DNA of 34,529 nt from Verrucomicrobiia bacterium (lineage in GTDB: Bacteria; Verrucomicrobiota; Verrucomicrobiia; Limisphaerales; UBA8199). The stretch is taken from NCBI GenBank assembly GCA_035946615.1, contig DASYZB010000091.1, positions 1 through 34,529 on the forward strand, read 5' to 3'. Below, piece after piece: positions 5,642 through 34,529 of this stretch. The notes below the pieces were generated by a model. The model made no database searches, was not told the origin of the DNA, and saw nothing but the letters and a program-made list of their open reading frames with translations. Every line of letters begins with the position of its first letter. Positions within the stretch are counted from its first letter, which is position 1. The translations under genes were made by a program, and so were the position numbers.

Positions 5642-6052
5642 ATGCAGGCCATCGCTGAAACTGGGGTGCTGCTGGGCTTATTCAACCTTGGAGGAAGGGA
5701 ACTAATCCTCTGCCTCGCCTTGGTTGTCATCGTAGTTGGCGCCAGGAAGTTGCCAGAGCTTAGCCGAGGGCTGGGGCGGGGGATTTTCGAGTTTCGTGAT
5801 TCAGCCCGGCGGGTGACAGAGGAAATCGATGAGGAGGCGAGCGAGGCGGGACGAGCGGTAGGAGGAATTTACGGGAAAGCGGCGGCCCAAGCGATAGCAC
5901 CAGATAATCAGGTAGCGGAACTATATGATCCCGCAGTGTTTCGGAAAATAACCCAACCACGCAAACGCCCTAATTTTGTGATAAGGAGACTCCTCAGTCT
6001 CCGCGAAATGACGCGCCGGGTGCTGCGAGCAATTCGCGGCGTGGGGAGATAA
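5642..6052 (+). CDS. twin-arginine translocase subunit TatA/TatB family
   Basis: 136 residues. A short periplasmic N-terminus is followed by one transmembrane helix (GRELILCLALVVIVVGA), the hinge KLPEL and an amphipathic helix (SRGLGRGIFEFRDSARRV), the classic TatA/B architecture. The C-terminal tail is longer than in most TatA proteins and ends in a basic region (RRLLSLREMTRRVLRAIRG). TatA forms the pore that moves folded proteins across the inner membrane. The gene lies 51 bases after the Lgt-like gene on the same strand. Likely clients in this window are the two proteins with twin-arginine signals at 14561 and 17276. TatA rather than TatB is my preference because of the overall shape. Confidence 0.85.
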   Translation: MQAIAETGVLLGLFNLGGRELILCLALVVIVVGARKLPELSRGLGRGIFEFRDSARRVTEEIDEEASEAGRAVGGIYGKAAAQAIAPDNQVAELYDPAVFRKITQPRKRPNFVIRRLLSLREMTRRVLRAIRGVGR

Positions 6053-6108
6053 GACGCTGCGCGTCATCAGCCAGTTTGGAGAAGAAACGACGAAGGTATT
6101 GTCTGTGG

Positions 6109-6666
6109 CTACTCGATGAGCAGGGCAAATTCCGCAGGACGCTCGGGTGTGTTCAGGCATTCGCGAAGGTAAGCAACGATTTGCTCTTCGAGCCCCTGGC
6201 AACGGGGAGTCCAGCGGCGGGCGCCGGCCAATTGCTTTACGCAGCCGCGCAGGCCATGGAACCGCAGGAGGCGCGGGCTTTGCCGCAGATGCTGCCGCAG
6301 CGCTTCGCGCAGGAGCGGAAAGAAAAGCAGTTCGCAACTCTGCCCGGAGTCCCGCGCCAGGCGGAACAAGTCCGATTCGACAACCCTTGTTGCGCGCGGA
6401 GCTTCCAGCGGGGCGGCAGGGAGGGGATTGAACCCGCGCAGCACCTTTTCCAGGGCCTCGGCAAACTCGGCGACCGACACGGTCTGCCGCCCCAACTCAT
6501 GTTTGAAGAAATGGAAAACCGCTTTGGCGGCATGCCGCACAAAATCCGGCTCAAAGCACTGCCCGCTTTGACCGGTTAGCTCGATGGAAATCATGTCCGA
6601 CGAGAACGGGACGCCCTCGCCGTTGGCCATTTCGAAAATCAAACAGTCCGCCGCTAATGTAATCAT
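6109..6666 (-). CDS. conserved hypothetical protein coupled to nrdR
   Basis: 185 residues, soluble, without signal peptide or membrane helix. It begins MITLAADCLIFEMANGEGVPF and contains FDxxxVRHAAKAVFHFFKHELGRQTVSVAEFAEALEKVLRGF, a helical segment likely to form a domain with the preceding strand-rich part. The C-terminal half has cysteine and arginine clusters (GLRGCVKQL, RCQGLEEQIVAYL) but no catalytic motif I can name. The ATG overlaps the nrdR stop codon by 4 bases, so both are made from one message. That points to a role in nucleotide metabolism or its control, but this is inference. I do not recognise the family. Confidence 0.75.
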   Translation of the reverse strand: MITLAADCLIFEMANGEGVPFSSDMISIELTGQSGQCFEPDFVRHAAKAVFHFFKHELGRQTVSVAEFAEALEKVLRGFNPLPAAPLEAPRATRVVESDLFRLARDSGQSCELLFFPLLREALRQHLRQSPRLLRFHGLRGCVKQLAGARRWTPRCQGLEEQIVAYLRECLNTPERPAEFALLIE

Positions 6667-7118
6667 TCGCCTCCTCCCAGTTTTTTTACTTCATGAACGA
6701 AATCAGTAGCCTCCTGGAACCGCCGGTAAACGCTGGCAAACCGCACATAAGCGACCTCATCGATCTGGCGCAAGCCATCCATGACCATTTTGCCGATGAC
6801 CTCGGCGGGCACCTCCCGTTCGTAGCGGTCCGTGACCTCGTTGACAATTCGCTCGGCCAGGTCCTCGATTATCTTGGGGCTGATTGGCCGTTTCTGGCAG
6901 GCCTTCCGGACCCCGGCCAGCAACTTCTCCTTCGAGAAGTCCTCGCGCCGGCCATCATGTTTGAGCACCACAAGACCCGCGCGCTCGACCTCTTCATACG
7001 TCGTAAACCGATAAGCACAGCCGAGACATTCACGCCGGCGCCGAATCGTGGCCCCCTCACGCGAGGCGCGCGAGTCGATTACTTTATCGTCCTGACAGCC
7101 GCATTTTGGGCAGCGCAT
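6663..7118 (-). CDS. nrdR: transcriptional repressor NrdR
   Basis: 151 residues from the ATG at 7118, giving MRCPKC, the standard NrdR start; a GTG at 7133 would add five residues. Counting from the ATG, the N-terminal zinc ribbon uses C3, C6, C31 and C34 (CPKC and CLGC) with the basic RRRREC between. The VIDSR and FTTYE segments are typical. An ATP-cone domain follows (VLKHDGRREDFSKEKLLAGV to YVRFASVYRRF). NrdR binds nucleotides through the ATP-cone and represses ribonucleotide reductase genes at paired NrdR boxes. No reductase gene lies in this window, so targets are elsewhere. A 185-residue gene overlaps its stop codon. Confidence 0.96.
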   Translation of the reverse strand: MRCPKCGCQDDKVIDSRASREGATIRRRRECLGCAYRFTTYEEVERAGLVVLKHDGRREDFSKEKLLAGVRKACQKRPISPKIIEDLAERIVNEVTDRYEREVPAEVIGKMVMDGLRQIDEVAYVRFASVYRRFQEATDFVHEVKKLGGGE

Positions 7119-7182: not shown

Positions 7183-7239
7183 GCAGGGGACTGGCGAAAA
7201 GTTCTCGGAACGCCAATAACAAGGTCGGTTCCAAACCTT

Positions 7240-7341
7240 TGTAGGAGACGACGTCATGAGTCTCTGATCAAGATTGTCAGATGGCCGCCTTTGGTTCACG
7301 CGGAAGTTGCTGACCAGAGACTCCTTACGTCGTCTCCTACA
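7240..7341. repeat. 102-bp inverted-repeat element
   Basis: Two 31-base arms face each other. The left arm (7240-7270) starts TGTAGGAGACGACGT and the right arm (7311-7341) is its reverse complement with three mismatches. About 40 bases of unrelated sequence lie between. The size and long terminal inverted repeats resemble a miniature transposable element or a large hairpin unit. No flanking direct repeat is visible, and no second copy lies in this window. Confidence 0.6.
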
Positions 7342-7398
7342 CTCAGGAATCGCGGTTCGTTGCTTTGACTTTGTCATTGGCCCCGAAAAGTTCTTGCA

Positions 7399-7515
7399 GC
7401 GTACGGGTAATGCCTCCGTGACTACGGGGCTGCCGGCTGAAGCCGGCGTTCCAGACGCGCGGAACGCCGCCTTTAGGCGGCAGCGCCCGCCGTCACTAAC
7501 CGATTACGCGTACGG
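7399..7515 (+). mobile_element. 101-bp palindromic mobile element, copy 1, with target duplication
   Basis: The element spans 7407-7507. It begins GTAAT and ends ATTAC, and its two halves form an imperfect palindrome with inner hairpins GCCGGC-TGAA-GCCGGC and GCCGCC-TTTA-GGCGGC. The 8-bp direct repeat GCGTACGG flanks it on both sides (7399-7406 and 7508-7515), as expected of a target site duplication. It is 99 of 101 identical to the inverted copy at 10936-11036. It encodes no protein; movement would require a transposase acting in trans. Confidence 0.8.
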
Positions 7516-7563
7516 CGGAATTCATCTGTCTAAGGGCTGTACTTTGGATTATATTTTATTCTC

Positions 7564-7947
7564 ATGAATGATAATGCAATTCCATGGTTATTTGGGCTGC
7601 TAACAGCGGGTTGGTTTGGCCTCATGGCTCAGAGGGCAGAACGCAATTGGGTCCTGTGGGTGTTGGCTGGAGGTTTTTTTGGCTTAGTCACGACCACCTT
7701 TGTGTTCGGTTTGGGCCATGCGGCTGCCATTCCGTTCTCTGATCACCAGAAGGGCGCGCTCCATATCGAATGGACCGTGTTAGCGGGGGTTCTCATCGCC
7801 GTGTTCGGCGGGCTCTTTACGATTGGGCTCCGGCGCAAAAACGGCGGCGCCGCCGCGACTGGCAAGGCCGACCCGCAGCTTTCGGAGGGGCCGCCGGCCA
7901 ACGTGGGTGTCCCTGCGCAACCAGCGGCCAAGACATTAAAGCGCTGA
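7564..7947 (+). CDS. small integral membrane protein
   Basis: 127 residues with three hydrophobic segments: IPWLFGLLTAGWFGLMA, WVLWVLAGGFFGLVTTTFVFGLG, and WTVLAGVLIAVFGGLFTIGL. A hydrophilic, alanine- and proline-rich tail of about 35 residues (GGAAATGKADP... to AAKTLKR) follows and is probably cytoplasmic. No family is recognised. It follows the palindromic elements and precedes the aminotransferase gene by about 80 bases on the same strand. Function is unknown. Confidence 0.7.
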   Translation: MNDNAIPWLFGLLTAGWFGLMAQRAERNWVLWVLAGGFFGLVTTTFVFGLGHAAAIPFSDHQKGALHIEWTVLAGVLIAVFGGLFTIGLRRKNGGAAATGKADPQLSEGPPANVGVPAQPAAKTLKR

Positions 7948-8025
7948 TTCGTTGCACTGCCGCCGCCTTTATTCCTAAGCGCTGGGCTTGCCTTTCGCAG
8001 GTTGCTGGTGAAAAATTCGGTTCCT

Positions 8026-9114
8026 ATGGGACACGTCAAACTGCATATTCCGGGGCCGGTCGAGGTGAGCGAGAAGACATTTCGCGCCTTTTGCTCGCCG
8101 ATGATCGGTCACCGCAGCCAGGGGTTCAAAGATTTATACGCCAGGATTCAGCCGCAGTTGCAGCAACTGCTATCAACCAAGCAATTGGTTTATATCAGCA
8201 CTTCCTCGGCTTGGGGTGTTATGGAAGGGGCCATTCGAAACCTGGTCTCCAAGAAGGCGCTTAACTGCATGTGTGGCGCTTTTTCGGATAAATGGCTCGA
8301 TGTCTCAAAACGGTGCGGCAAACAAGCCGAGGCGCTGCAAGTGCCGTGGGGCTCGCCCATCCGCGCCGAGGAGGTGGATAAGAAGCTGGCGAGCGGCCAA
8401 TTCGACGCTCTGACCCTCATCCACAACGAGACCTCAACGGGCGTAATGAGCCCCCTGGCAGAAATCGCCGCACTCAAGAAGAAGTATCCGGAGGTGATGT
8501 TCATCGTCGATTCGGTCAGCTCGATGACAGCGGTGCCGCTGAAGTTCGACCAATTGGGAATCGATGTGCTTTTGGCCGGAACGCAAAAGGCCTTTGCGCT
8601 GCCGCCGGGGACCGCATTATTTGTTTGCTCTGCTGCAGCTTTGGCGAAGGCAAGCACCATGAAAGACCGCGGTTACTACTTCGATTTTGTCGAATTCCAG
8701 AAGAATGCGGAACAACACATGACGCCCAGCACGCCGAGCATCGGCCACGTCTTCGCGCTCGAATCGAAGCTGGGAGATATTTTTGCGGAGGGATTGGAGG
8801 CCCGTTACGCGCGGCACCAGCGCGCCAACCGGATGACGCGTGATTGGGCAACCCGGCACGGGTTCAATTTGTTCCCTGAAAAAGGATACGAATCCCTCAC
8901 GCTGACCTGCGTCAATAACGGGGCCAAACCTGGCAGCCGGACGGTCGATGTGCCCAAGCTGCAGAAACTGGTCAAGGAGCAGGGCTTCCTGATTGATGGC
9001 GGCTACGGAAAGATCAAGGGGACGACCTTTAGGATTTCCAATATGGGCGACGAGACCGAATCGAGCATGGGCCGGTTGTTCGAGGCGATGGACAATGCGA
9101 TGAAACAGTTGTGA
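8026..9114 (+). CDS. class V aminotransferase (alanine/serine-glyoxylate type)
   Basis: 362 residues from the ATG at 8026; upstream GTG and TTG codons in frame are less likely because MGHVKLHIPGPVEV is the normal start of the family. It is a pyridoxal-phosphate fold-type I enzyme. The SSAWGVMEGAIRN segment fits the phosphate-binding region, HNETSTGV and VDSVSSM provide cofactor contacts, and K188 in AGTQKAFALPPG is the Schiff-base lysine. Members transfer amino groups from alanine or serine to glyoxylate or pyruvate; exact substrates cannot be read from sequence. GGYGKIKGTTFRISNMGD near the C-terminus is typical. The next gene follows after nine bases, suggesting one transcript with the M32 peptidase. 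Confidence 0.88.
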   Translation: MGHVKLHIPGPVEVSEKTFRAFCSPMIGHRSQGFKDLYARIQPQLQQLLSTKQLVYISTSSAWGVMEGAIRNLVSKKALNCMCGAFSDKWLDVSKRCGKQAEALQVPWGSPIRAEEVDKKLASGQFDALTLIHNETSTGVMSPLAEIAALKKKYPEVMFIVDSVSSMTAVPLKFDQLGIDVLLAGTQKAFALPPGTALFVCSAAALAKASTMKDRGYYFDFVEFQKNAEQHMTPSTPSIGHVFALESKLGDIFAEGLEARYARHQRANRMTRDWATRHGFNLFPEKGYESLTLTCVNNGAKPGSRTVDVPKLQKLVKEQGFLIDGGYGKIKGTTFRISNMGDETESSMGRLFEAMDNAMKQL

Positions 9115-9123
9115 ACGCTTATT

Positions 9124-10614
9124 ATGGAGACCAAATTCGCTCCTTATCGGAACCTGCTGAAGCGGAGCCGTCAAATCGCCTGGGTTTCAAGCGCCGCCGA
9201 GGCGCTGGCCTGGGACATCGAGACCTACATGCCGCCCAAGGCCTTGGATTTTCGCGCCGAGCAAATGGGCCATTTGAGCGGCCACACCCACCGGCTCTTT
9301 ACCGCAAGAAAAACGGGCGACTGGATTGCGGCGTGCGAACAGAACGGTTTTGTTGCCGATTCCCCTGAGGCCGCTAATGTGCGGGAATGGCGCCGGCGCT
9401 ATGACCGAGCCGCGAAATTGCCGGCGCGATTGGTCGAGAGGTTTCAGAAAACCTGCGCGCACGCGCGCGAGGCCTGGAAGAAAGCGCGGCAGGAGTCGAA
9501 TTTTAAGATTTTCAAGCCGCACCTGAAGAAGGTGCTGGAACTGAGCCGGCAACGGGCCGATTACTGGGGCTTCCCGGAATCCCCCTACGACGCCCTGCTG
9601 GATGAATTTGAACCCGGCATGCGGGCCGGCCAGGCGCGCGCCTTGTTTGCCCAGTTGCGCCCCGCCATTACCTCGGTTCTCGGTGCCGCCCTTAAACGCT
9701 CGGCTTCAGTACCGGAAGATTTGCTCAAGGGCAACTATCCAACCACCGCCCAGCAGGCGCTCAACCGGCGCGCAGCCGAGGCCATCGGTTTCGACTTTTC
9801 CGCAGGGCGAATCGATACCACGACACATCCCTTTTGCACCACGCTGGGGCCCGGAGATTGCCGGCTGACCACCCGCTATAACGAGCAGAACTTTACCCAG
9901 TCCTTTTATGGCGTGCTTCATGAAGCCGGCCATGGGCTCTACGAGCAAGGGTTGCCCACCGAACATTTCGGCACGCCGCTGGGCAGCGCGGCCTCTTTAG
10001 GCATTCACGAATCCCAATCGCGCCTGTGGGAAAACCACATCGGACGCCACCCGGATTTCTGGAAGCATTGGCATCCCATCGCCTGCGAGCACTTTCCCGA
10101 ACTGAAGCGCATCCCTCCGGAACAACTGGCCGCAGCGGTCAACCGTGTCGCGCCTTCTTTTATCCGGGTCGAAGCCGATCAGGTCACTTACGACCTGCAC
10201 ATCATCCTGCGATTCGAAATTGAAGTGAAGATGATCGAGGGCCAGTTGCCCGTGGCCGATGTGCCGGCCTATTGGAACGAGGAATTCCAGAAGATGCTCG
10301 GGTTAAAAATCACCAGGGACTCTGACGGTTGCTTGCAGGACATCCACTGGAGCATGGGGAGTATCGGCTACTTCCCCACTTACACTTTAGGCAACCTCAA
10401 TGCGGCCCAACTCATGCGCCGGGCGATGGCGGATAACCCAAACCTGGAATCCGCGCTTGCTCAGGGACAGTATCAAACGTTGCTGGCCTGGTTGCGCCAG
10501 AAGGTCCATCGTCATGGCCTGCGCTACCTGCCGCAGGAACTGATGCAGCAGGCCACGGGCGAAACCACCCAGACAGCCCATCACCTGGAGTACTTGCGCG
10601 CGAAATTCTTGTAG
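9124..10614 (+). CDS. M32 family metallocarboxypeptidase (Taq-type)
   Basis: 496 residues, normal for the family. The zinc-binding HEAGH motif is H266-H270 (GVLHEAGHGLYEQGL), and the third ligand is probably E296 in GIHESQSRLWEN, both diagnostic of carboxypeptidase Taq. The substrate-loop segment (HPFCTTLGPGDCRLTTRY) and the C-terminal GSIGYFPTYTLGNLNAAQL are also characteristic. The enzyme removes C-terminal amino acids from peptides and has no signal peptide, so it acts in the cytoplasm. It lies directly after the aminotransferase gene. A hairpin terminator follows at 10630. Confidence 0.95.
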   Translation: METKFAPYRNLLKRSRQIAWVSSAAEALAWDIETYMPPKALDFRAEQMGHLSGHTHRLFTARKTGDWIAACEQNGFVADSPEAANVREWRRRYDRAAKLPARLVERFQKTCAHAREAWKKARQESNFKIFKPHLKKVLELSRQRADYWGFPESPYDALLDEFEPGMRAGQARALFAQLRPAITSVLGAALKRSASVPEDLLKGNYPTTAQQALNRRAAEAIGFDFSAGRIDTTTHPFCTTLGPGDCRLTTRYNEQNFTQSFYGVLHEAGHGLYEQGLPTEHFGTPLGSAASLGIHESQSRLWENHIGRHPDFWKHWHPIACEHFPELKRIPPEQLAAAVNRVAPSFIRVEADQVTYDLHIILRFEIEVKMIEGQLPVADVPAYWNEEFQKMLGLKITRDSDGCLQDIHWSMGSIGYFPTYTLGNLNAAQLMRRAMADNPNLESALAQGQYQTLLAWLRQKVHRHGLRYLPQELMQQATGETTQTAHHLEYLRAKFL

Positions 10615-10629
10615 AAACGGGTAAGTGAG

Positions 10630-10693
10630 ACGGAGTGATGCAGTATTGGCGTGATGGAGTGGTGGGAAACCCAATACTCCAGCACTCCGTTTT
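10630..10693. terminator. hairpin terminator between converging genes
   Basis: The 20-base arms ACGGAGTGATGCAGTATTGG (10630-10649) and its near reverse complement (10671-10690) pair with two mismatches, and a TTTT run ends at 10693. It lies between the stop of the M32 peptidase gene (plus) and the stop of the small membrane protein gene (minus), so it could stop transcription from both sides. It may also be a member of a dispersed repeat family. Confidence 0.6.
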
Positions 10694-10698
10694 GAGAT

Positions 10699-10878
10699 TC
10701 AGTCTTTCATCAGGCGGAAGGCGCAAACGATCAGTAGCAGCAGCGCAAAGCCGGCGATCGCAGCGGCCACGGACTCGACGATAACACCAGCCGTCCCCAA
10801 AATAACCCCAATGAACCCCATTCCGAACAGGACGTAATCCACGGGACCACGAGTGGTCGAATCAAAGTATTCTTCCAT
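10699..10878 (-). CDS. small membrane protein (59 aa)
   Basis: A 59-residue frame from an ATG at 10878 to a TGA at 10699. It starts MEEYFDSTTRGPVDYVLFG, has two hydrophobic segments (VLFGMGFIGVILGTAGVIV and AAAIAGFALLLLIVCAF) and ends RLMKD, a coherent hairpin membrane topology with charged ends. The ribosome binding site is weak (CTGAG about 7 bases upstream). It converges with the M32 peptidase gene across a shared hairpin and has a palindromic mobile element about 60 bases upstream. No family is recognised. Confidence 0.6.
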   Translation of the reverse strand: MEEYFDSTTRGPVDYVLFGMGFIGVILGTAGVIVESVAAAIAGFALLLLIVCAFRLMKD

Positions 10879-10935
10879 AATTACTCAGAATTTAGAACAA
10901 GGGCAGAGAAACGCAATGGAACAAACCCATGGAAC

Positions 10936-11036
10936 GTAATCGGTTAGTGACGGCGGGCGCTGCCGCCTAAAGGCGGCGTTCCGCGCGTCCGGAACGCCGG
11001 CTTCAGCCGGCAGCCCCGTAGTCACTGAGGCATTAC
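10936..11036 (-). mobile_element. 101-bp palindromic mobile element, copy 2, inverted
   Basis: In reverse orientation this matches copy 1 (7407-7507) at 99 of 101 positions, with the same GTAAT...ATTAC ends. The 8-bp direct repeat CATGGAAC flanks it (10928-10935 and 11037-11044). This sequence differs from the one around copy 1, which indicates independent insertions at different targets. It lies between the 59-residue membrane protein gene and the PRC-barrel gene. Confidence 0.8.
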
Positions 11037-11098
11037 CATGGAACCAACCCTTGCTCCCCCTGGTCTTGAGGCGTAAGTTGACATCGAAAGGGCGGTTT

Positions 11099-21518: not shown

Positions 21519-24500
21519 ATGGAAATCTTTATGAAAAAGAATTCACTCTTCCAAACCAGCGCATCCGCTTGGGCTCTGCCCGTCCTGCTCATCGTTCTGT
21601 ATCTTGTTCCTGCCCGCATATTGGCTGCGGATCAGACCTGGACCGGCGCGGGCGGGGACGGTTTTTGGCACAATGGCGGCAACTGGGCCGGTGGCATCCT
21701 GCCTTCGGCGGGAGATTCTCTCTCTTTCTCGGGAACAGTTGGCCTGGCCAACACAAATAATTTCAGCATGGGCACCGCCTTTAGCGGGATCACCTTCAAG
21801 GGGCCGGGCGGATTCACGCTCTCGGGAAATTCGATTGGTTTGGCCGGTGGGATTACCAACCGCCAGGTAGTGACCCCTGAATCCATCAACCTTTCGCTAT
21901 CATTGAGCGCCAGCCAGGACATCGATGTGGTGGGCAATGGGTTGCTGGCCATTAACAGCGCCATCTCTGGGGCCGGCGGTATCACCAAGACCGGCGATGG
22001 GGTCTTAACGCTCTCAGGAGCAAACAGCTTCACTGGGCCTGTGGGAATTTTAGGCGGGAAATTAGCCGTCAATTCAGCCGGAAACCTGGGTGCGCCCTCA
22101 CGGCTTTCAATCGATAAGGGCGCTCTTGAGACCACCGCCAGCCTGGCGCTCAACTCGAGCATGGGCATCGCTTTGGGCCCAAATCCCGGCGCCGGCGCCG
22201 GGACGCTCACCGTCGATTCGGGCACAACCTTGTCGTATGGCGGGGTGATAGCAAATAATGGCAGTGGTCCCGATGGCTTGACCAAAAACGGCTTCGGCAC
22301 CCTGGTCCTTTCGGGGGCCAATACTTATACCGGCTCAACCTCCAACCGGGTTGGCACTTTGACTCTGGATTTCTCCCAACCTGGCGCGCCGCTAACCAAC
22401 ATTATCTCGCCGAGTTCTTTCCTTATTCTTGGTGGAGAAAATGCCGGGTTCGGCGCGCTTAATTTCGCCCAACTCAATTTGGTAGGAGGTGGCGGAGCCG
22501 CGAATTCCCAGACCTTCAATGGGACACATGTCACCTTTGCGTCCTCGGTGATCCTCGCAACCAACGGACCCGGCGGCACGGCCAATCTTGACCTGGGCGC
22601 CCTCGATCACGACCCGGGCGGGACGCTGACCCTCATTACCCCGGCCTTGGGAGGAGGGGGGAACATTATCACCTCGAGCACGAACGTGAACGGCATCCTG
22701 GGCGGCTGGGCGACTCTCGGCGATGGATCGGCTGTGACGATCACCGGCAATAACGTCGCCAATTCCATCATCCTCGGGACCGATTTCGCGAGCGTCGATC
22801 CCCTCGGGCATATCGTTAATTTCACCGGTTACACGCCTCTGGCCAATGGCCAAACCATCCACAGTATCAGCACCGCGGCGGCCAATCTGCTCATCACCAG
22901 CGCCGTCACCGGAGATATGCTCGTGGATAACGACAACGCGGGAACACTCACGGACGTCAACGCTATCAACTGGAACCGGACGGACAACGGCGTTACTCTA
23001 AAGATCGGCATCGGAAACACCCTGCGGCTTGGCCGCTTTGGCGCCATCTTCAAGCCCAATACAACCTCGGGCCTAACCTGGTTGATCGGCGAGACGCCCA
23101 AAGGCGCCAATGGGCCGGACCAAAACATCGGCATCCTGACGGCGGGTGGCGCCGATAACACGCCAGGCGAGATCGTGGTTGATGTCAACTGCGCCAGTTC
23201 ATCCTCTGGAACGCTCATCATTGATTCTCAAATCACCGACAACGGCTCGGCTCCAGTTACGTTTGTGAAAACCGGAGCCGGCTCAATGAAACTGCGCGGC
23301 CACAACACCTTCTCGGGCGGCACTTTCCTCCTCCAGGGCCGCGTCCAATTTGTCGGTGGCGAGGGCGGCGTTGGCACGGGCAATGCCGATGCGGGCGGCA
23401 CCGGCCCTATTTATATCCTTCCCGGTTGTTATCTCTTCCCCAGCGGCGCCGGCCCCACGACCCCAGTCACCAACGCCGTCTTCATTGCGGGCAACGGCAC
23501 GGCGGGCGAGCCTCTGGGCGCGATTCGCACGACAGGTGGCTGGCTCTTTAATGGACCGTGGACCCTGATTGGGGACACCACCATCGGCGGTAACGGCGGC
23601 GCCAGCGGGGCCATTGGGGCTAAACTCTCCGGACCGTTCAACCTGTCTTTGTGCTCGCCGGTCACAGTCAACGGCACCGTCTCCTTGACCAACTCGCAAA
23701 ATGATTGGAGCGGCACGACCACGATGAACGCCAGTCCCCATGGCGCCAACACCTTCCTGAGCGGCAACAGCGAGATCATCCCCAACGGCTTTGGCAAAGG
23801 CAACGTCCTCATGAACGGCTTGGGCGCCGACACAATCACATGGAATATGAACGGCTTCAACGAAACCATCAACGGCCTGTCCAGCTCCGGCGTGGGGGCA
23901 AGTTGCTTCATTGTCAACAATGGCCCCTCGCCTTCTTCGCTCACGATCGGCGACAACGACCAGTCCGGCGTCTTCGCCGGCGCGATTCAAGACGGTGCTA
24001 ACAACATCACACTGACTAAGATTGGCGGGGGTGTCGAAATGCTGACCGGCAACAACACCTATTCGGGCCCCACTCTCATTAACGGGGGCGCGCTGGCTTT
24101 GAGCGGCGCCGGCTCGATTGCAACCAGTTCCTCTATTCAGGTCAACCCCGGCGCCGCGCTGGATGTTTCCGGCGTGACCGGCGGATTCTCCTCCTTCAAT
24201 CCGATTGGGATTAATGGGGGTTCGATCATCGGTAATACCTCCGCTTCCGGCATTACCAGCCTCGGCCTGACCAATTCATCGCTTGCGCTTTCAGTGGACC
24301 CCAGCGTGACCAATCTGGTCGTCGGCAGCTTGACAACGGGCGGCGCCAATACCATCAATATCAGCTCTGTCTTTAACGTGCCCAGTTACCCTGCCCTCTT
24401 CACGCTTCTCAAGTACACCGGGGCCATTGCCGGGAGCGGCTACAATTTCACCCTCGGAACCCTGCCGACTTCCACAACCCTAGGCTATGTCTCGAATGAT

Positions 24501-27500
24501 ACGGCCAATGCATCTGTGGTTTTGGTTTTAACCTCCGGGCCCAAAGCGCTCACTTGGGCCGGCAATGTGAACAACGACTGGGACATCGCGACAACCGCAA
24601 ACTGGACTTTTTCCGGCAACCCCGTCCAATTTAATAATTTGGACTCGGCATTTTTCGATGATACCGCTGCAACCACCACCGTGAACCTCGCAACCGTGGT
24701 TCTGCCCGGCGCGATTACAGTCTATACAACTAACGGTTACACCTTTACCGGGAACGGAGCTATCAGCGGCGCCACCTCATTAACCAAGAACGGCTCGGGA
24801 CCTTTGACGTTGCTCGAAACGGGGGGCGATACCTTTAATGGCGGCGTGGCAGTCAATGAAGGCGCGGTCATTTTCGGCGCCGATAACGCCATCGCCGGCG
24901 GGCTGGCTATTGGCGGCACGGCCAACGTCCAGGTTGGGACCAATGGTGGCACTGGAACCTTGCCCTCGGGCGGCGTAGCCGACAATGGCGCACTCACCTT
25001 CAACCGTGGAGCGGACCTGGTGGTGCCCAATCCCATCTCGGGCACGGGCGTGGTAAGCAAGATCGACTCGGCCATCTTAACTTTGAGCGGGGGCAATGGC
25101 GCCCTTGCCGGTGCGGTCAGCGTGGCCCAAGGAACTCTCAAAGCCGGCAGCAGCAGCGCCTTGGGCGCGCCCGGCGTGGTCACAACAGTCAGCAGCGGCG
25201 CCACTCTTGATGTCAATGGCCAGCAACTCAACAATGTGACTGTGGTTGTTTCAGGGGCTGGCGCCGGCGGCCAGGGCGCCATTGTTAACTCTGGGCCAGA
25301 CAATATCAATGCCTTGGGCTGGGTGACCCTTGCCGGCAATACGACTTTTGGCGGCACCGGGCGTTGGGACATCCGCGGAGGCGCGGCCCAACTGCTAACC
25401 GTTCCTCCCAGCAGCCCCTATACACTCACTAAGATCGGTCCGAACCAAGTTTCGTTGGTTGGCCTGACGGTGGATGCCGGCCTTGGCGACATCAACGTCC
25501 TGAACGGCCTTCTCAGCGTCGAAACCACTACCGGTTCGCTGGGAGACCCCAATCACACCTTGACCGTCGCGCCGGGGGCTGAACTTCAGTTCTATAACAG
25601 CACCATCTCATTGGGCAAAAAATTTGTGCTCAACGGCACCGGAACCAACACCACGCTCAATTGCGGGAGTGGGATAGCCAATTCAGTTGGCGGTCCGGTG
25701 GTCCTCAATGGGAATTGCCTGTTTAACGCCGCTAGCGGCTCCGCCCTGACATTTAACGGCGCTCTGAGCGGCAGCGGCAGCTTCATTAAGACCGGGAGCG
25801 GAACCAATGTGATAGCGGGAGTTGTCACAGCCAGTTATGGCAGTACCATCATCAGCAATGGCACCTTGGCCGTCGAGGGGACCGTGGGTAGCAATGTGGC
25901 TGTCTATAACGGCGGTATCCTGGGAGGTTTCGGCGCAGCCACCGGGAATGTGGGGATTACCAACGGCATTTTGAGCCCTGGGGATGCGAATCTGCCGCTG
26001 GCCATGCTCACATTGGGCGCGTTGGTTCTCGATAACGCGACTTGCACGTTCGAGCTCTCGACAGCGGCTTCATCGGGCAACGATCAGGTCGTGGTGACGG
26101 GCGGATTGACTCTGAGCGGCACCAACACACTGCAAATCGTCCCCCCAGCGACGATGAATCCAGGCGATGTGTACACCCTTTTCCGCTACAGCGGCGCTCC
26201 CCTGCCCAGCAGCGCTACCAATAACCTCATTGTGCTTTCCACCCAGGCCGGTTTCACTTTCTCCATCGTCGATCCGGCAACAACCCCAGGCGCCATCAAT
26301 CTCCTGGTCCAGACAGCCATTGGTGATGATCTCTGGACCGGTGCCACCTCATCCATCTGGGACAATTCCACAACGAACTGGACCAGAAATGCCGCCCCGG
26401 CTGTGTTTAATAACCTCGATTTCGTCTCCTTTGATGATTCGTCCTCTGTGACAAACGTGAGTCTCTCCGGCGCGTTGACGACCTCCGGCATCACCATGAA
26501 CAATGCCAGCCGGGCCTACACCTTCAGTGGCAGCGGCAAGCTCACCGGAAAAGGCGGATTGCACGTCGCCGGCATCGGATTGACGATCGCCAATCAGGGC
26601 AGCAATGACTTTACCGGACCGATCACGATTGATTTTGGCATATTGCAGGTGGGTAATGGCGGCGCTAATGGCAACCTGGGCTCAAGCATTCTCACCAACA
26701 ACGGTTCGCTGGTGTTCGATCGGACCGGGAGTTTGATGGTGAACAACTCCATCACCGGCACGGGCTCGCTGACAAACATCGGCACGGGAATCGTAACCCT
26801 GAGCGGCGCCAGCACTTTTGACGGCGAGGTGGACGTGTTCCAGGGCACCCTTCAGATCAACAACAATGCCGCTCTGGGCAGTACAGTCGGAAATACTGTC
26901 GTCACCAATGGCGCAACCTTGGACCTCGGCGGCCCGGGTTTGGCCAGCAACGGATTGAATCTCGGCCAGGAACACCTCTTCGTCAGCGGCGGTGGTGTAG
27001 GCGGCAAAGGTGTTATTGTCAATAACGGCAGCCAGGGCCAGATTCATGCCCTCCAAGTCGTGAGCCTGACAGGTGATGCAACCTTTGGGGGCACGCAACG
27101 GTGGGACATTCGCGCCGCAAATGCGACCAGCCTCACCGAGTTGAACACCGCCGGCCAGTCGTTCAACTTGACCAAGGTGGGCGCCAACCAGATATCTCTT
27201 GTCGGGGTTGCCGTGGACCCGGCGCTCTCCAATATCGTGGTGCTGGCAGGCATGCTGGGTGTCGAGGCTGGAACAACTTCTTTAGGCGATACTAACGCCA
27301 CCATCAGCATCGCCAGCAACGCAACTCTCGAGTTTTATCAGTTGGTGGCAACCAACATCGCCAAGCCGCTTGTTCTTAGCAACGCCGCCACCGTCCTGAA
27401 TAATAGCGGCGCCAACGTCTATGCCGGCTCTATCTCTCTGGAGGGGGACGCGACTTTCAACATTGGTGGGACCTCTTTCACCCAAAGCAACAGCATCAGT

Positions 27501-28301
27501 GGCACGGGCGGCCTCATTAAGAGCGGAGGCAGCCCGCTGCTCCTGGCGGGCCCTTTGACTTTCGCCGGCCAGACCAAAATCACCGCGGGCCGCCTTGCGC
27601 TTGTGGGTGATTCGTTGACCGCGAGTTCCCTGATTAATATTGCTGCTGGAATGCTGGACCTAAGCCAGGCCTCGAGCCCTACCCTCACTTTGCTGTCCGG
27701 CCAAACCCTGGAAGGCGCCGGCACAATTTGGGGCAGCGTGATTGCCGGCGCGGGTTCCACGGTCGCCCCCGGCAGCCTGAGCGCCCTGACGGTCACCAAC
27801 ACCATCACTCTTCAAGGCCAAACCGTGATGGAACTCAACGCAGCGGCGGGAACTGCCGACCAGCTCGCCGCTGCCAGCATCGCCTACGGCGGCGCTCTGA
27901 CGGTTACCAATGTCAATGGCGCTTTGGCCTCCGGCAACAGCTTTAAACTTTTCAGCGCCCCGAGCCTAACGGGAACCTTCAACGCAATCACCCTGCCCGC
28001 ACTCTCGCCAGGGTTGTATTGGAGCAATACCCTTGCCGTGGACGGCAAAGTCGCTGTCGCCGGCGCGCTCCAAGTGCGGCCCATCCTGGGGATTCTCTCG
28101 AGTTCGCAAGGGGGCTTTGTGCTGAGTGGCACAAACGGGACTCCTGGCGCCACCTATTACGTGCTATCAACCACCAATGTCGCCTTGCCGCTCTCTGAAT
28201 GGACGCCGATTGCCACGAACCAACTCGACTCATCCGGAGCATTCCATTTCACCAATTCCGAATCTCTGTCTCAGCAGTATTTCATCCTTCAATTGCCTTA
28301 G
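21519..28301 (+). CDS. giant autotransporter-associated beta-strand-repeat protein
   Basis: 2260 residues; the true start may be the ATG at 21531 (MKKNSLF). A signal peptide covers about residues 5-37 (ALPVLLIVLYLVPARILAA). The rest is built of glycine-, serine- and asparagine-rich beta-helical repeats of the form GGITKTGDGVLTLSGANSFTG-x(n)-GG-x-L (PATR type). Three large modules each begin with a W-T/A-G-x(n)-W-x(n)-NW block, near residues 38, 1010 and 1604. The second and third share a long homologous segment (TTFGGTGRWDIRGG; ATFGGTQRWDIRAA). No C-terminal autotransporter barrel and no PEP-CTERM anchor is visible; the protein ends in a Y...W...YFILQLP module. It is probably a secreted or surface-attached fibre; its export route is unclear. 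Confidence 0.9.
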   Translation: MEIFMKKNSLFQTSASAWALPVLLIVLYLVPARILAADQTWTGAGGDGFWHNGGNWAGGILPSAGDSLSFSGTVGLANTNNFSMGTAFSGITFKGPGGFTLSGNSIGLAGGITNRQVVTPESINLSLSLSASQDIDVVGNGLLAINSAISGAGGITKTGDGVLTLSGANSFTGPVGILGGKLAVNSAGNLGAPSRLSIDKGALETTASLALNSSMGIALGPNPGAGAGTLTVDSGTTLSYGGVIANNGSGPDGLTKNGFGTLVLSGANTYTGSTSNRVGTLTLDFSQPGAPLTNIISPSSFLILGGENAGFGALNFAQLNLVGGGGAANSQTFNGTHVTFASSVILATNGPGGTANLDLGALDHDPGGTLTLITPALGGGGNIITSSTNVNGILGGWATLGDGSAVTITGNNVANSIILGTDFASVDPLGHIVNFTGYTPLANGQTIHSISTAAANLLITSAVTGDMLVDNDNAGTLTDVNAINWNRTDNGVTLKIGIGNTLRLGRFGAIFKPNTTSGLTWLIGETPKGANGPDQNIGILTAGGADNTPGEIVVDVNCASSSSGTLIIDSQITDNGSAPVTFVKTGAGSMKLRGHNTFSGGTFLLQGRVQFVGGEGGVGTGNADAGGTGPIYILPGCYLFPSGAGPTTPVTNAVFIAGNGTAGEPLGAIRTTGGWLFNGPWTLIGDTTIGGNGGASGAIGAKLSGPFNLSLCSPVTVNGTVSLTNSQNDWSGTTTMNASPHGANTFLSGNSEIIPNGFGKGNVLMNGLGADTITWNMNGFNETINGLSSSGVGASCFIVNNGPSPSSLTIGDNDQSGVFAGAIQDGANNITLTKIGGGVEMLTGNNTYSGPTLINGGALALSGAGSIATSSSIQVNPGAALDVSGVTGGFSSFNPIGINGGSIIGNTSASGITSLGLTNSSLALSVDPSVTNLVVGSLTTGGANTINISSVFNVPSYPALFTLLKYTGAIAGSGYNFTLGTLPTSTTLGYVSNDTANASVVLVLTSGPKALTWAGNVNNDWDIATTANWTFSGNPVQFNNLDSAFFDDTAATTTVNLATVVLPGAITVYTTNGYTFTGNGAISGATSLTKNGSGPLTLLETGGDTFNGGVAVNEGAVIFGADNAIAGGLAIGGTANVQVGTNGGTGTLPSGGVADNGALTFNRGADLVVPNPISGTGVVSKIDSAILTLSGGNGALAGAVSVAQGTLKAGSSSALGAPGVVTTVSSGATLDVNGQQLNNVTVVVSGAGAGGQGAIVNSGPDNINALGWVTLAGNTTFGGTGRWDIRGGAAQLLTVPPSSPYTLTKIGPNQVSLVGLTVDAGLGDINVLNGLLSVETTTGSLGDPNHTLTVAPGAELQFYNSTISLGKKFVLNGTGTNTTLNCGSGIANSVGGPVVLNGNCLFNAASGSALTFNGALSGSGSFIKTGSGTNVIAGVVTASYGSTIISNGTLAVEGTVGSNVAVYNGGILGGFGAATGNVGITNGILSPGDANLPLAMLTLGALVLDNATCTFELSTAASSGNDQVVVTGGLTLSGTNTLQIVPPATMNPGDVYTLFRYSGAPLPSSATNNLIVLSTQAGFTFSIVDPATTPGAINLLVQTAIGDDLWTGATSSIWDNSTTNWTRNAAPAVFNNLDFVSFDDSSSVTNVSLSGALTTSGITMNNASRAYTFSGSGKLTGKGGLHVAGIGLTIANQGSNDFTGPITIDFGILQVGNGGANGNLGSSILTNNGSLVFDRTGSLMVNNSITGTGSLTNIGTGIVTLSGASTFDGEVDVFQGTLQINNNAALGSTVGNTVVTNGATLDLGGPGLASNGLNLGQEHLFVSGGGVGGKGVIVNNGSQGQIHALQVVSLTGDATFGGTQRWDIRAANATSLTELNTAGQSFNLTKVGANQISLVGVAVDPALSNIVVLAGMLGVEAGTTSLGDTNATISIASNATLEFYQLVATNIAKPLVLSNAATVLNNSGANVYAGSISLEGDATFNIGGTSFTQSNSISGTGGLIKSGGSPLLLAGPLTFAGQTKITAGRLALVGDSLTASSLINIAAGMLDLSQASSPTLTLLSGQTLEGAGTIWGSVIAGAGSTVAPGSLSALTVTNTITLQGQTVMELNAAAGTADQLAAASIAYGGALTVTNVNGALASGNSFKLFSAPSLTGTFNAITLPALSPGLYWSNTLAVDGKVAVAGALQVRPILGILSSSQGGFVLSGTNGTPGATYYVLSTTNVALPLSEWTPIATNQLDSSGAFHFTNSESLSQQYFILQLP

Positions 28302-34448: not shown

Positions 34449-34529
34449 GTATCCCCTCAGTGACTACGGGGCTGCCGGCTGAAGCCGGCGTTCCGGACGC
34501 GCGGAACGCCGCCTTTAGGCGGCAGCGCC
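34449..34529 (+). mobile_element. 101-bp palindromic mobile element, copy 3, cut by window end
   Basis: The first 81 bases of the element are present in the same orientation as copy 1. They match copy 2 except for three changes at positions 4-6 (GTATCC instead of GTAATG). The full element would end at 34549, outside the window. The eight bases before it are GTGAGGAA (34441-34448); whether they are duplicated on the far side cannot be seen. Confidence 0.75.

Follow-up and report, generated by a model that had tools for sequence, protein, structure and literature searches.

A 101-bp palindromic element in a Verrucomicrobiia genome reads best as an IS66-type miniature transposable element with a REPIN-like core

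Results

The element and its target-site duplications

We analyzed a 34,529-nucleotide stretch of DNA from a Verrucomicrobiia bacterium (the window), which is the entire contig C91 of a 5.6-Mb, 161-contig host assembly (G000) with 96% completeness. The window carries two full copies of a 101-bp palindromic element whose mobility is well supported by the target-site duplications (TSDs) that surround its copies throughout the host genome. This element is very probably a miniature inverted-repeat transposable element (MITE) of the IS66 family, close to the ISBst12 group of insertion sequences (ISs), and its core resembles a REPIN, an inverted pair of repetitive extragenic palindromic (REP) units. 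Copy 1 (plus strand) and copy 2 (minus strand) differ at 2 of 101 positions, and both start with GTAAT and end with ATTAC. The two copies, their boundaries and ends, and the perfect octamers around each are as the initial annotation of this DNA had described them. A third, partial copy, absent from that annotation, starts at 34449 and reaches the contig end at 34529. The strand of the element folds into a single long hairpin (-34.5 kcal/mol with DNA parameters; z -5.3, equaled by 0 of 200 shuffles). The features are as follows:

7399..7406, no strand: left TSD of copy 1 (GCGTACGG), perfect octamer
7407..7507, plus strand: copy 1 of the 101-bp element in consensus orientation, from the sequence
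7407..7422, plus strand: left terminal repeat of copy 1, GTAATGCCTCcGTGAC, an IS66-type end, then TACGG
7430..7452, minus strand: REP-like unit 1 of copy 1, GGAACGCCGnnTnnAnnCGGCAG on the minus strand, from the unit pattern
7461..7483, plus strand: REP-like unit 2 of copy 1, inverted relative to unit 1 with an 8-bp spacer, from the unit pattern
7492..7507, minus strand: right terminal repeat of copy 1, GTAATCGGTTAGTGAC reading inward, then GGCGG
7508..7515, no strand: right TSD of copy 1 (GCGTACGG), perfect octamer
10928..10935, no strand: TSD of copy 2 (CATGGAAC), perfect octamer
10936..11036, minus strand: copy 2, with all 101 bp as in the genome consensus
11037..11044, no strand: TSD of copy 2 (CATGGAAC), perfect octamer
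34449..34529, plus strand: third copy, ended by the contig end; its left end GTATCCCCTCAGTGAC shares 16 identical bp with the left end of the IS at locus L159 (see below)

Searching the host genome with the element gave at least 41 matches, one of them a self-complement on C26, and hence at least 40 places; these are lower bounds from the best 40 of 94 candidates. A pattern for the ends that allowed up to one mismatch produced 48 forward and 48 reverse hits, compared with 0 and 1 for its reversed control. In all, the host genome holds about 50 copies, truncated ones among them. We assembled a set of 44 copies from the 40 searched places (38 fetched and 2 in the window) and 4 places found by the end pattern (C116:51134, C35:42801, C121:28824 and C72:14339). 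Copies were chosen by their ends, using a pattern fitted to the variants seen, and the flanks were not used in the choice. Truncated or decayed copies (C10:1829, C87:6549, C21:2716, C113:29681-30164, C116:106393 and window 34449) lie outside this set, as do C73:21771 and C55:43275, one-mismatch single ends that were not taken as copies. The C113 stretch among these, 484 bp long (L064), has both IS66-type ends, with other DNA separating two element-like halves, and no TSD.

Exact 8-bp duplications flank 38 of the 44 copies, and a further four copies (C33, C107, C41:4413 and C74:21719) have duplications that match at 7 of 8 bases. The other two are C10:6762, which matches at 5 of 8 and sits at the border of a possible composite, and C72, where the right end has decayed. 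When left flanks were re-paired at random with right ones, no exact octamer arose in any of 10,000 shuffles. Exact direct repeats of 5, 6, 7, 10, 11 or 12 bp were found at the same boundary in 0 of 44 copies, and a 9-bp repeat was found in 1. The initial annotation had named copies without 8-bp repeats as evidence that would count against mobility, and this distribution favors it.

All 44 copies are gene-free and 100-106 bp long (101 bp in 34), so that the element has the size and copy number of a MITE. The commonest ends, GTAATGCCTCAGTGAC on the left (30/44) and GTAATCGGTTAGTGAC on the right (40/44), give it the combination of terminal inverted repeats and fixed-length duplications that is characteristic of this class. 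Eleven of the first 40 copies match the consensus at all 101 bp, which suggests recent spread. By a crude stop-to-stop measure, 34 of the 44 sites fall outside open frames of at least 200 codons, and base counts made no target motif evident in the 8-bp duplications. No full-length copy was found in 39 other relatives, none of the same genus, with the best 22 or fewer candidates scored per genome.

A paralogous empty site

Copy C35:42801 is inserted within another interspersed palindromic repeat. When the element and one octamer are removed, the joined flanks align straight through window positions 7228-7342 (85% over 115 bp) and through positions 1178-1293 of locus L026 (87%). The octamer TGATCAGA is single in both. 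These uninterrupted relatives are a paralogous empty site. Together with the exact duplications and the shuffles, this site bears out the initial annotation's description of a mobile, non-coding element that duplicates 8 bp. That annotation also called for empty target sites in relatives: the one found is paralogous, and the contrary outcome it named, relatives that all carry the element, was not seen in the 39 relatives searched, which belong to other genera.

The repeat at window 7228-7342 (TAGGAGACGACG... to ...CGTCGTCTCCTA) is a second palindromic interspersed repeat that lies about 60 bp before copy 1. It has relatives in L026, L027 and L072, of which the L072 relative is interrupted by a copy of the 101-bp element.

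IS66-type ends and a partner insertion sequence

IS66-family ISs make 8-bp duplications and have ends that begin with GTAAGCG or GTAACTGCTCAGCA, according to passages of PMC11946415 and PMC12898284. (All literature statements here rest on passages of the cited papers.) The element has ends that start with GTAA and an 8-bp duplication, in agreement with the family description in PMC11946415. The initial annotation left several IS families open; the choice has now narrowed, and we strongly infer from the ends and the duplication that the mover is of the IS66 type. Movement in trans, as that annotation envisaged, would fit the gene-free copies.

A complete 1,854-bp IS with such ends is present in a genome of the same family (L159, PSRM01000107.1, taken to be contig C264 of G009). 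Its ends lie at 5903 (GTATCCCCTCAGTGACGGCGG) and 7756 (GTATTCCCTCAGTGACGGCGG), between two copies of CATTTTTG. It codes for a DUF6788 open reading frame (ORF; 6001-6339) followed by an IS66 DDE transposase in a 463-codon frame, which matches PF03050 (E 1.5e-34) and the NCBIfam IS66 model NF033517 (200.7 bits against a cut-off of 180, with 340 aa submitted). A related transposase at L162, from a Lentisphaerae-titled record, scores 220.9 bits against the same cut-off. D209, D260 and E378, which we take to be the catalytic DDE residues, are identical in the two proteins. The L162 IS has the same DUF6788/transposase gene pair and ends GTAATGGGTCAGTGACGGGGG and GTAGTGCGTCAGTGACGGGGG, with no TSD; it carries the end GTAATGGGTCAGTGAC. 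Both L159 and L162 thus place an IS66 DDE transposase inside an IS with ends of this type.

The L159 end GTATCCCCTCAGTGACGGCGG matches the end of host copy C116:106393 at 21 of 21 positions and those of C49:6966 and window 34449 at 16 of 16. These three host copies carry the variant end GTATCCCCTCAGTGAC; C49:6966 has an exact TSD, and C116:106393 is truncated and has none. The element therefore has ends in common with an autonomous IS, as expected of a MITE, through L159, and the commonest host ends fit less well.

The DUF6788 ORF overlaps the open transposase frame in both ISs (about 6330-6339 in L159 and 4565-4670 in L162), and the first ATG, GTG or TTG of the L159 transposase frame is at 6699. 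Translational coupling or frameshifting between the two is therefore possible. No TnpA- or TnpB-like ORF stood out in the L159 ORF list, and no domain search was made for them. Transposases of this kind turned up in 2 of the 293 order genomes (E<=1e-30), one as a fragment, and in 8 of the 387 phylum genomes (E<=1e-60), L162 included, with at most the best 4 or 5 candidates scored per genome.

A REP-like core linked to RAYT genes in relatives

Element positions 24-46 and 55-77 hold two copies of GGAACGCCGnnTnnAnnCGGCAG, inverted to each other and separated by 8 bp, which is the arrangement of a REPIN. Counting the host, 15 of 293 genomes contain the unit, and the tabulated reversed control shows 0 hits. 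It is most abundant in the host (105), followed by G008 (57), G017 (56), G268 (50) and G200 (25), and the latter four have zero exact matches to the IS66-type end. Among the places listed, host units lie mostly inside the element; C13:61254 has no visible ends. In G017 (C27) and G008 (C813), units stand on both sides of an ORF for a REP-associated tyrosine transposase (RAYT), and these RAYTs are 74% identical to each other. Many pairs in G008 (L190-L199) and G017 (L200-L209) are embedded in longer repeats, with surroundings that are not alike in the two genomes. The initial annotation's contrast between a mobile element and a REP hairpin was right about mobility and too sharp as a contrast, as the core is itself an inverted REP-like pair of a kind that flanks RAYT genes in two genomes.

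The host has seven Y1_Tnp matches. The unit-flanked RAYT type of G008 and G017 was absent among these seven loci, three of which gave partial matches of 26-27%, and no cognate RAYT of the sort expected for a REPIN was recognized among them. The 8-bp duplications are a further departure from REPINs, which are not known to duplicate their target. We infer that the REP pair was captured by IS66-type ends.

Transposase search in the host

The initial annotation envisaged a transposase acting in trans, and our searches of the host assembly with PF03050, DUF6788 and the L159-type transposase did not find the expected one. These searches, with PF01797, covered two families (PF03050 and PF01797) and two proteins (DUF6788 and the L159 transposase). 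We considered the two PF03050 matches as helper ISs and rejected both: the C4 gene belongs to another IS66-like type, and the C26 match is a tail at a contig start with the end GTAACTGCTCAG. The position of the C26 tail is in keeping with an assembly broken by repeats. On C4 (L166), the IS66-like gene (627-1289), an element copy (2353-2453) and a RAYT-like fragment (2716-2874) lie within 2.3 kb. A helper IS in the same genome, as is typical for a MITE, was not found in this 96% complete, 161-contig assembly, which does not prove its absence. Its absence may reflect repeats that break the assembly, loss of the IS, or the action of another IS66.

The same ends enclose other palindromes in related genomes

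The end sequence GTAAYSSSTYAGTGAC has exact matches in 11 of 293 genomes of the order, the host included. The counts that stand out are those of the host (81), G012 (9), G078 (8), G009 (5) and G116 (5). G009, G012, G074, G078 and G116 have 28 listed end places, and the 20 loci that we fetched cover 21 of them (3 in G078 and 4 in G012 were left unread). Eight of these loci are broken by a contig end inside the element, five are single-ended, and seven have both ends. Among the seven, four have exact 8-bp TSDs (L095 CGCGCCCC, L099 GTCAAATA, L101 CCCTAAAG and L106 CTTCGTTT), two match at 7 of 8 bases (L093 and L098), and L097 has none; the second ends of L093 and L097 were judged by eye.

L095, L098, L099, L101 and L106 are 113-179 bp long and have palindromic middles that, by eye, differ from that of the host element. 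L098 and L099 have their middle in common, and L101 bears GTAATCGGTTAGTGAC, the right end of the host element. Folding z scores are -7.4 for L095 and -9.0 for L101. None of the five loci was matched when G009 and G012 were searched with the host element (G116 was outside this search). The longer core units of the relatives' MITEs occur inside the elements only or nowhere in the 37-85 kb fetched from each of G009, G012 and G116; the 7-base core unit GGAGCGC was too short to judge in this comparison. IS66-type ends thus enclose various palindromes in related genomes.

In G116, a DUF6788 ORF and then the beginning of a transposase frame come after the end; the DUF6788-bearing copies of this genome are deleted or decayed, and the complete ISs are those of L159 and L162. 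L093 is a deletion derivative with flanks CAGTCAAG and CGGTCAAG (7 of 8). In G078 (L087-L091), contigs stop some 54 bp inside the end GTAATGCGTCAGTGAC, and the inner sequence is of two types, the pattern that a multi-copy IS would leave if its two ends were present but its body had not been assembled.

A possible composite on C10

C10 carries two mutually inverted copies, one truncated with its outer end at 1829 and one full with its outer end at 6861, which delimit a 5,033-bp unit (C10:1829-6861, L164). The right-type end GTAATCGG of both copies faces outward. TCGACAGT lies immediately next to each of the two outer ends and has no other occurrence in the 9 kb, whichever strand is read. On its inner side, the full copy is flanked by ACGGCACT. 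This pattern, an outer pair with a differing inner flank, is not what an inversion between copies would be expected to give. In this one case, the two copies may have moved the intervening 4.9 kb as one composite unit. The inner ORFs look like those of a HAD phosphatase and two putative 2-oxoacid:ferredoxin oxidoreductase subunits, so a 5-kb stretch with putative keto-acid:ferredoxin oxidoreductase genes may have traveled as a composite transposon.

Other features of the window

A 2260-aa open frame spans window positions 21519-28301. Rfam at gathering thresholds gave no match within the window, the plasmid search gave no match, and no viral contigs with GTAATCGGTTAGTGACGGCGG were found.

Discussion

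Proposed mechanism and competing explanations

We propose that the ends of the element (GTAWYSSSTYAGTGAC, then GGCGG on the right or TACGG on the left) would be recognized in trans by a DDE transposase of the L159 kind. The enzyme would cut the target with an 8-bp stagger, and gap filling would yield the 8-bp duplication that we observe. Since the GGAACGCCGnnTnnAnnCGGCAG unit flanks a RAYT gene in two related genomes, IS66-type ends probably came to surround a REPIN-like pair, which would now be spreading on IS66 machinery. A broader version of this history seems to us about evenly balanced between true and false. It holds that the palindrome was at first spread by a RAYT (an HUH enzyme), then came to lie between IS66-type ends, lost its RAYT and is now spread by a DDE enzyme, and that such enclosure of local palindromes was repeated in the order, giving a hybrid class with one kind of end and interchangeable cores.

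Several observations weigh against the assignment to IS66 and the origin of the core. Exact matches to the IS end are confined to variant copies (3 of about 50), the 21/21 match belongs to the truncated copy without a TSD (C116:106393), and the commonest host end GTAATGCCTCAGTGAC agrees just partly with GTATCCCCTCAGTGAC. Four ISs of the group have both ends visible, and these comprise one exact TSD, two without (L162 and L189) and one that cannot be judged (L183, whose locus stops exactly at the IS end). The host gave no match to the L159-type transposase (E<=1e-30, best 5 of 6 candidates) or to DUF6788, and its only two PF03050 matches are the C4 gene of the other IS66-like type and a tail of 70 aa where C26 begins. 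With GTAAYSSSTYAGTGAC, the reversed control also gave scattered hits, 1 or 2 in a genome, and single hits accordingly carry little weight. The RAYT link is known from two genomes (G008 and G017), and the GGAACGCCGnnTnnAnnCGGCAG unit was near a RAYT at 0 of 12 loci (L170-L181) and 0 of 9 loci (L214-L222) in two overlapping sets.

The most serious competitor, itself improbable, is a MITE of another DDE family that duplicates 8 bp, such as IS256, ISL3, IS1595 or IS1, with convergence accounting for the likeness to IS66 ends. Duplications of 8 bp are not unique to IS66 and fit other families, and the host was searched for just two transposase families and two proteins. Against convergence, host end variants are identical at 21 of 21 and 16 of 16 positions to the end of a complete IS66-type IS that has the same TSD length and comes from a genome of the same family. 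A published IS66 of the ISBst12 group likewise has the end GTAACTGCTCAGCA (PMC12898284).

A true REPIN moved by a RAYT (HUH/Y1) transposase, with the 8-bp repeats as a secondary feature, would account for a core that is an inverted REP-like pair flanking RAYT genes in G008 and G017, and for the seven host Y1_Tnp matches, one of them 263 bp from the element copy on C4. We disfavor this explanation and regard it as very unlikely. Duplications of 8 bp flank 38 of 44 copies at one exact boundary, and we know of no REP or REPIN insertions that duplicate 8 bp. The conserved unit reaches past the REP pair to the GTAAT...ATTAC ends, whereas the REP-bearing genomes G008, G017, G020, G021, G200 and G268 lack such ends (0 exact matches each), and the unit-flanked RAYT type has just the partial matches at 3 of 7 host loci. 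There is almost no chance that the element is an inert hairpin, such as a terminator or chromatin site, copied by recombination. Its strong hairpin and the 34 of 44 sites outside long open frames (by the crude measure above) would suit that role, but the precise boundaries and the different octamers duplicated at 38 of 44 sites refute it, and the paralogous empty site also speaks against it.

Repeats like this high-copy palindrome are commonly classed as REP or "hairpin"; reading it as an IS66-type MITE with a REPIN-like core links it to a particular chemistry of transposition. If this reading is true, RAYT-linked palindromes can switch their driver, and palindromes are a recurrent cargo of IS66-type ends.

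Comparison with known systems

In the literature examined we met no IS66 MITE with a REP core, which is no proof of absence. High-copy palindromes have been described in the same superphylum as the host, in the form of the GTAG-tagged REPs of Opitutus terrae (Verrucomicrobia; PMC3733652). Unlike our element, these have no IS ends in the text passages of that paper, where the word-start "duplicat" occurs 0 times. REPIN/RAYT systems share with the element an inverted pair of a short palindromic unit, one that is RAYT-flanking in G008 and G017. They differ in that the element has IS66-type ends and 8-bp duplications, and the unit-flanked RAYT type was not found in the host.

Among MITEs, MITEAba12 is 111-114 bp long, makes a 9-bp duplication and has terminal repeats in common with an IS (PMC6382973). 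It resembles the host element in its length of about 110 bp, IS-shared terminal repeats and fixed-length duplication. The host element differs in its 8-bp duplication, its IS66-type ends, its near-full-length palindrome with a REP-like pair, and the lack of a helper IS among those found in the genome.

The closest ISs are those of the ISBst12 branch of IS66, whose transposition was reported as active for the first time in a 2026 paper (PMC12898284). In passages of that paper, ISDge4 of this group has ends GTGACTACTCAGCA and GTAACTGCTCAGCA and a 449-aa transposase. The element shares its 8-bp duplication and has the comparable end GTAATGCCTCAGTGAC, and the L162 ORF is also 449 aa. The element differs from ISDge4 in being gene-free at 101 bp, and the L159 IS differs in having a DUF6788 ORF before its transposase. 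The element is thus of a known kind, a MITE of the IS66 type, and its REPIN-like core within IS66-type ends, with sister elements that hold other palindromes, is a variant that is new to us.

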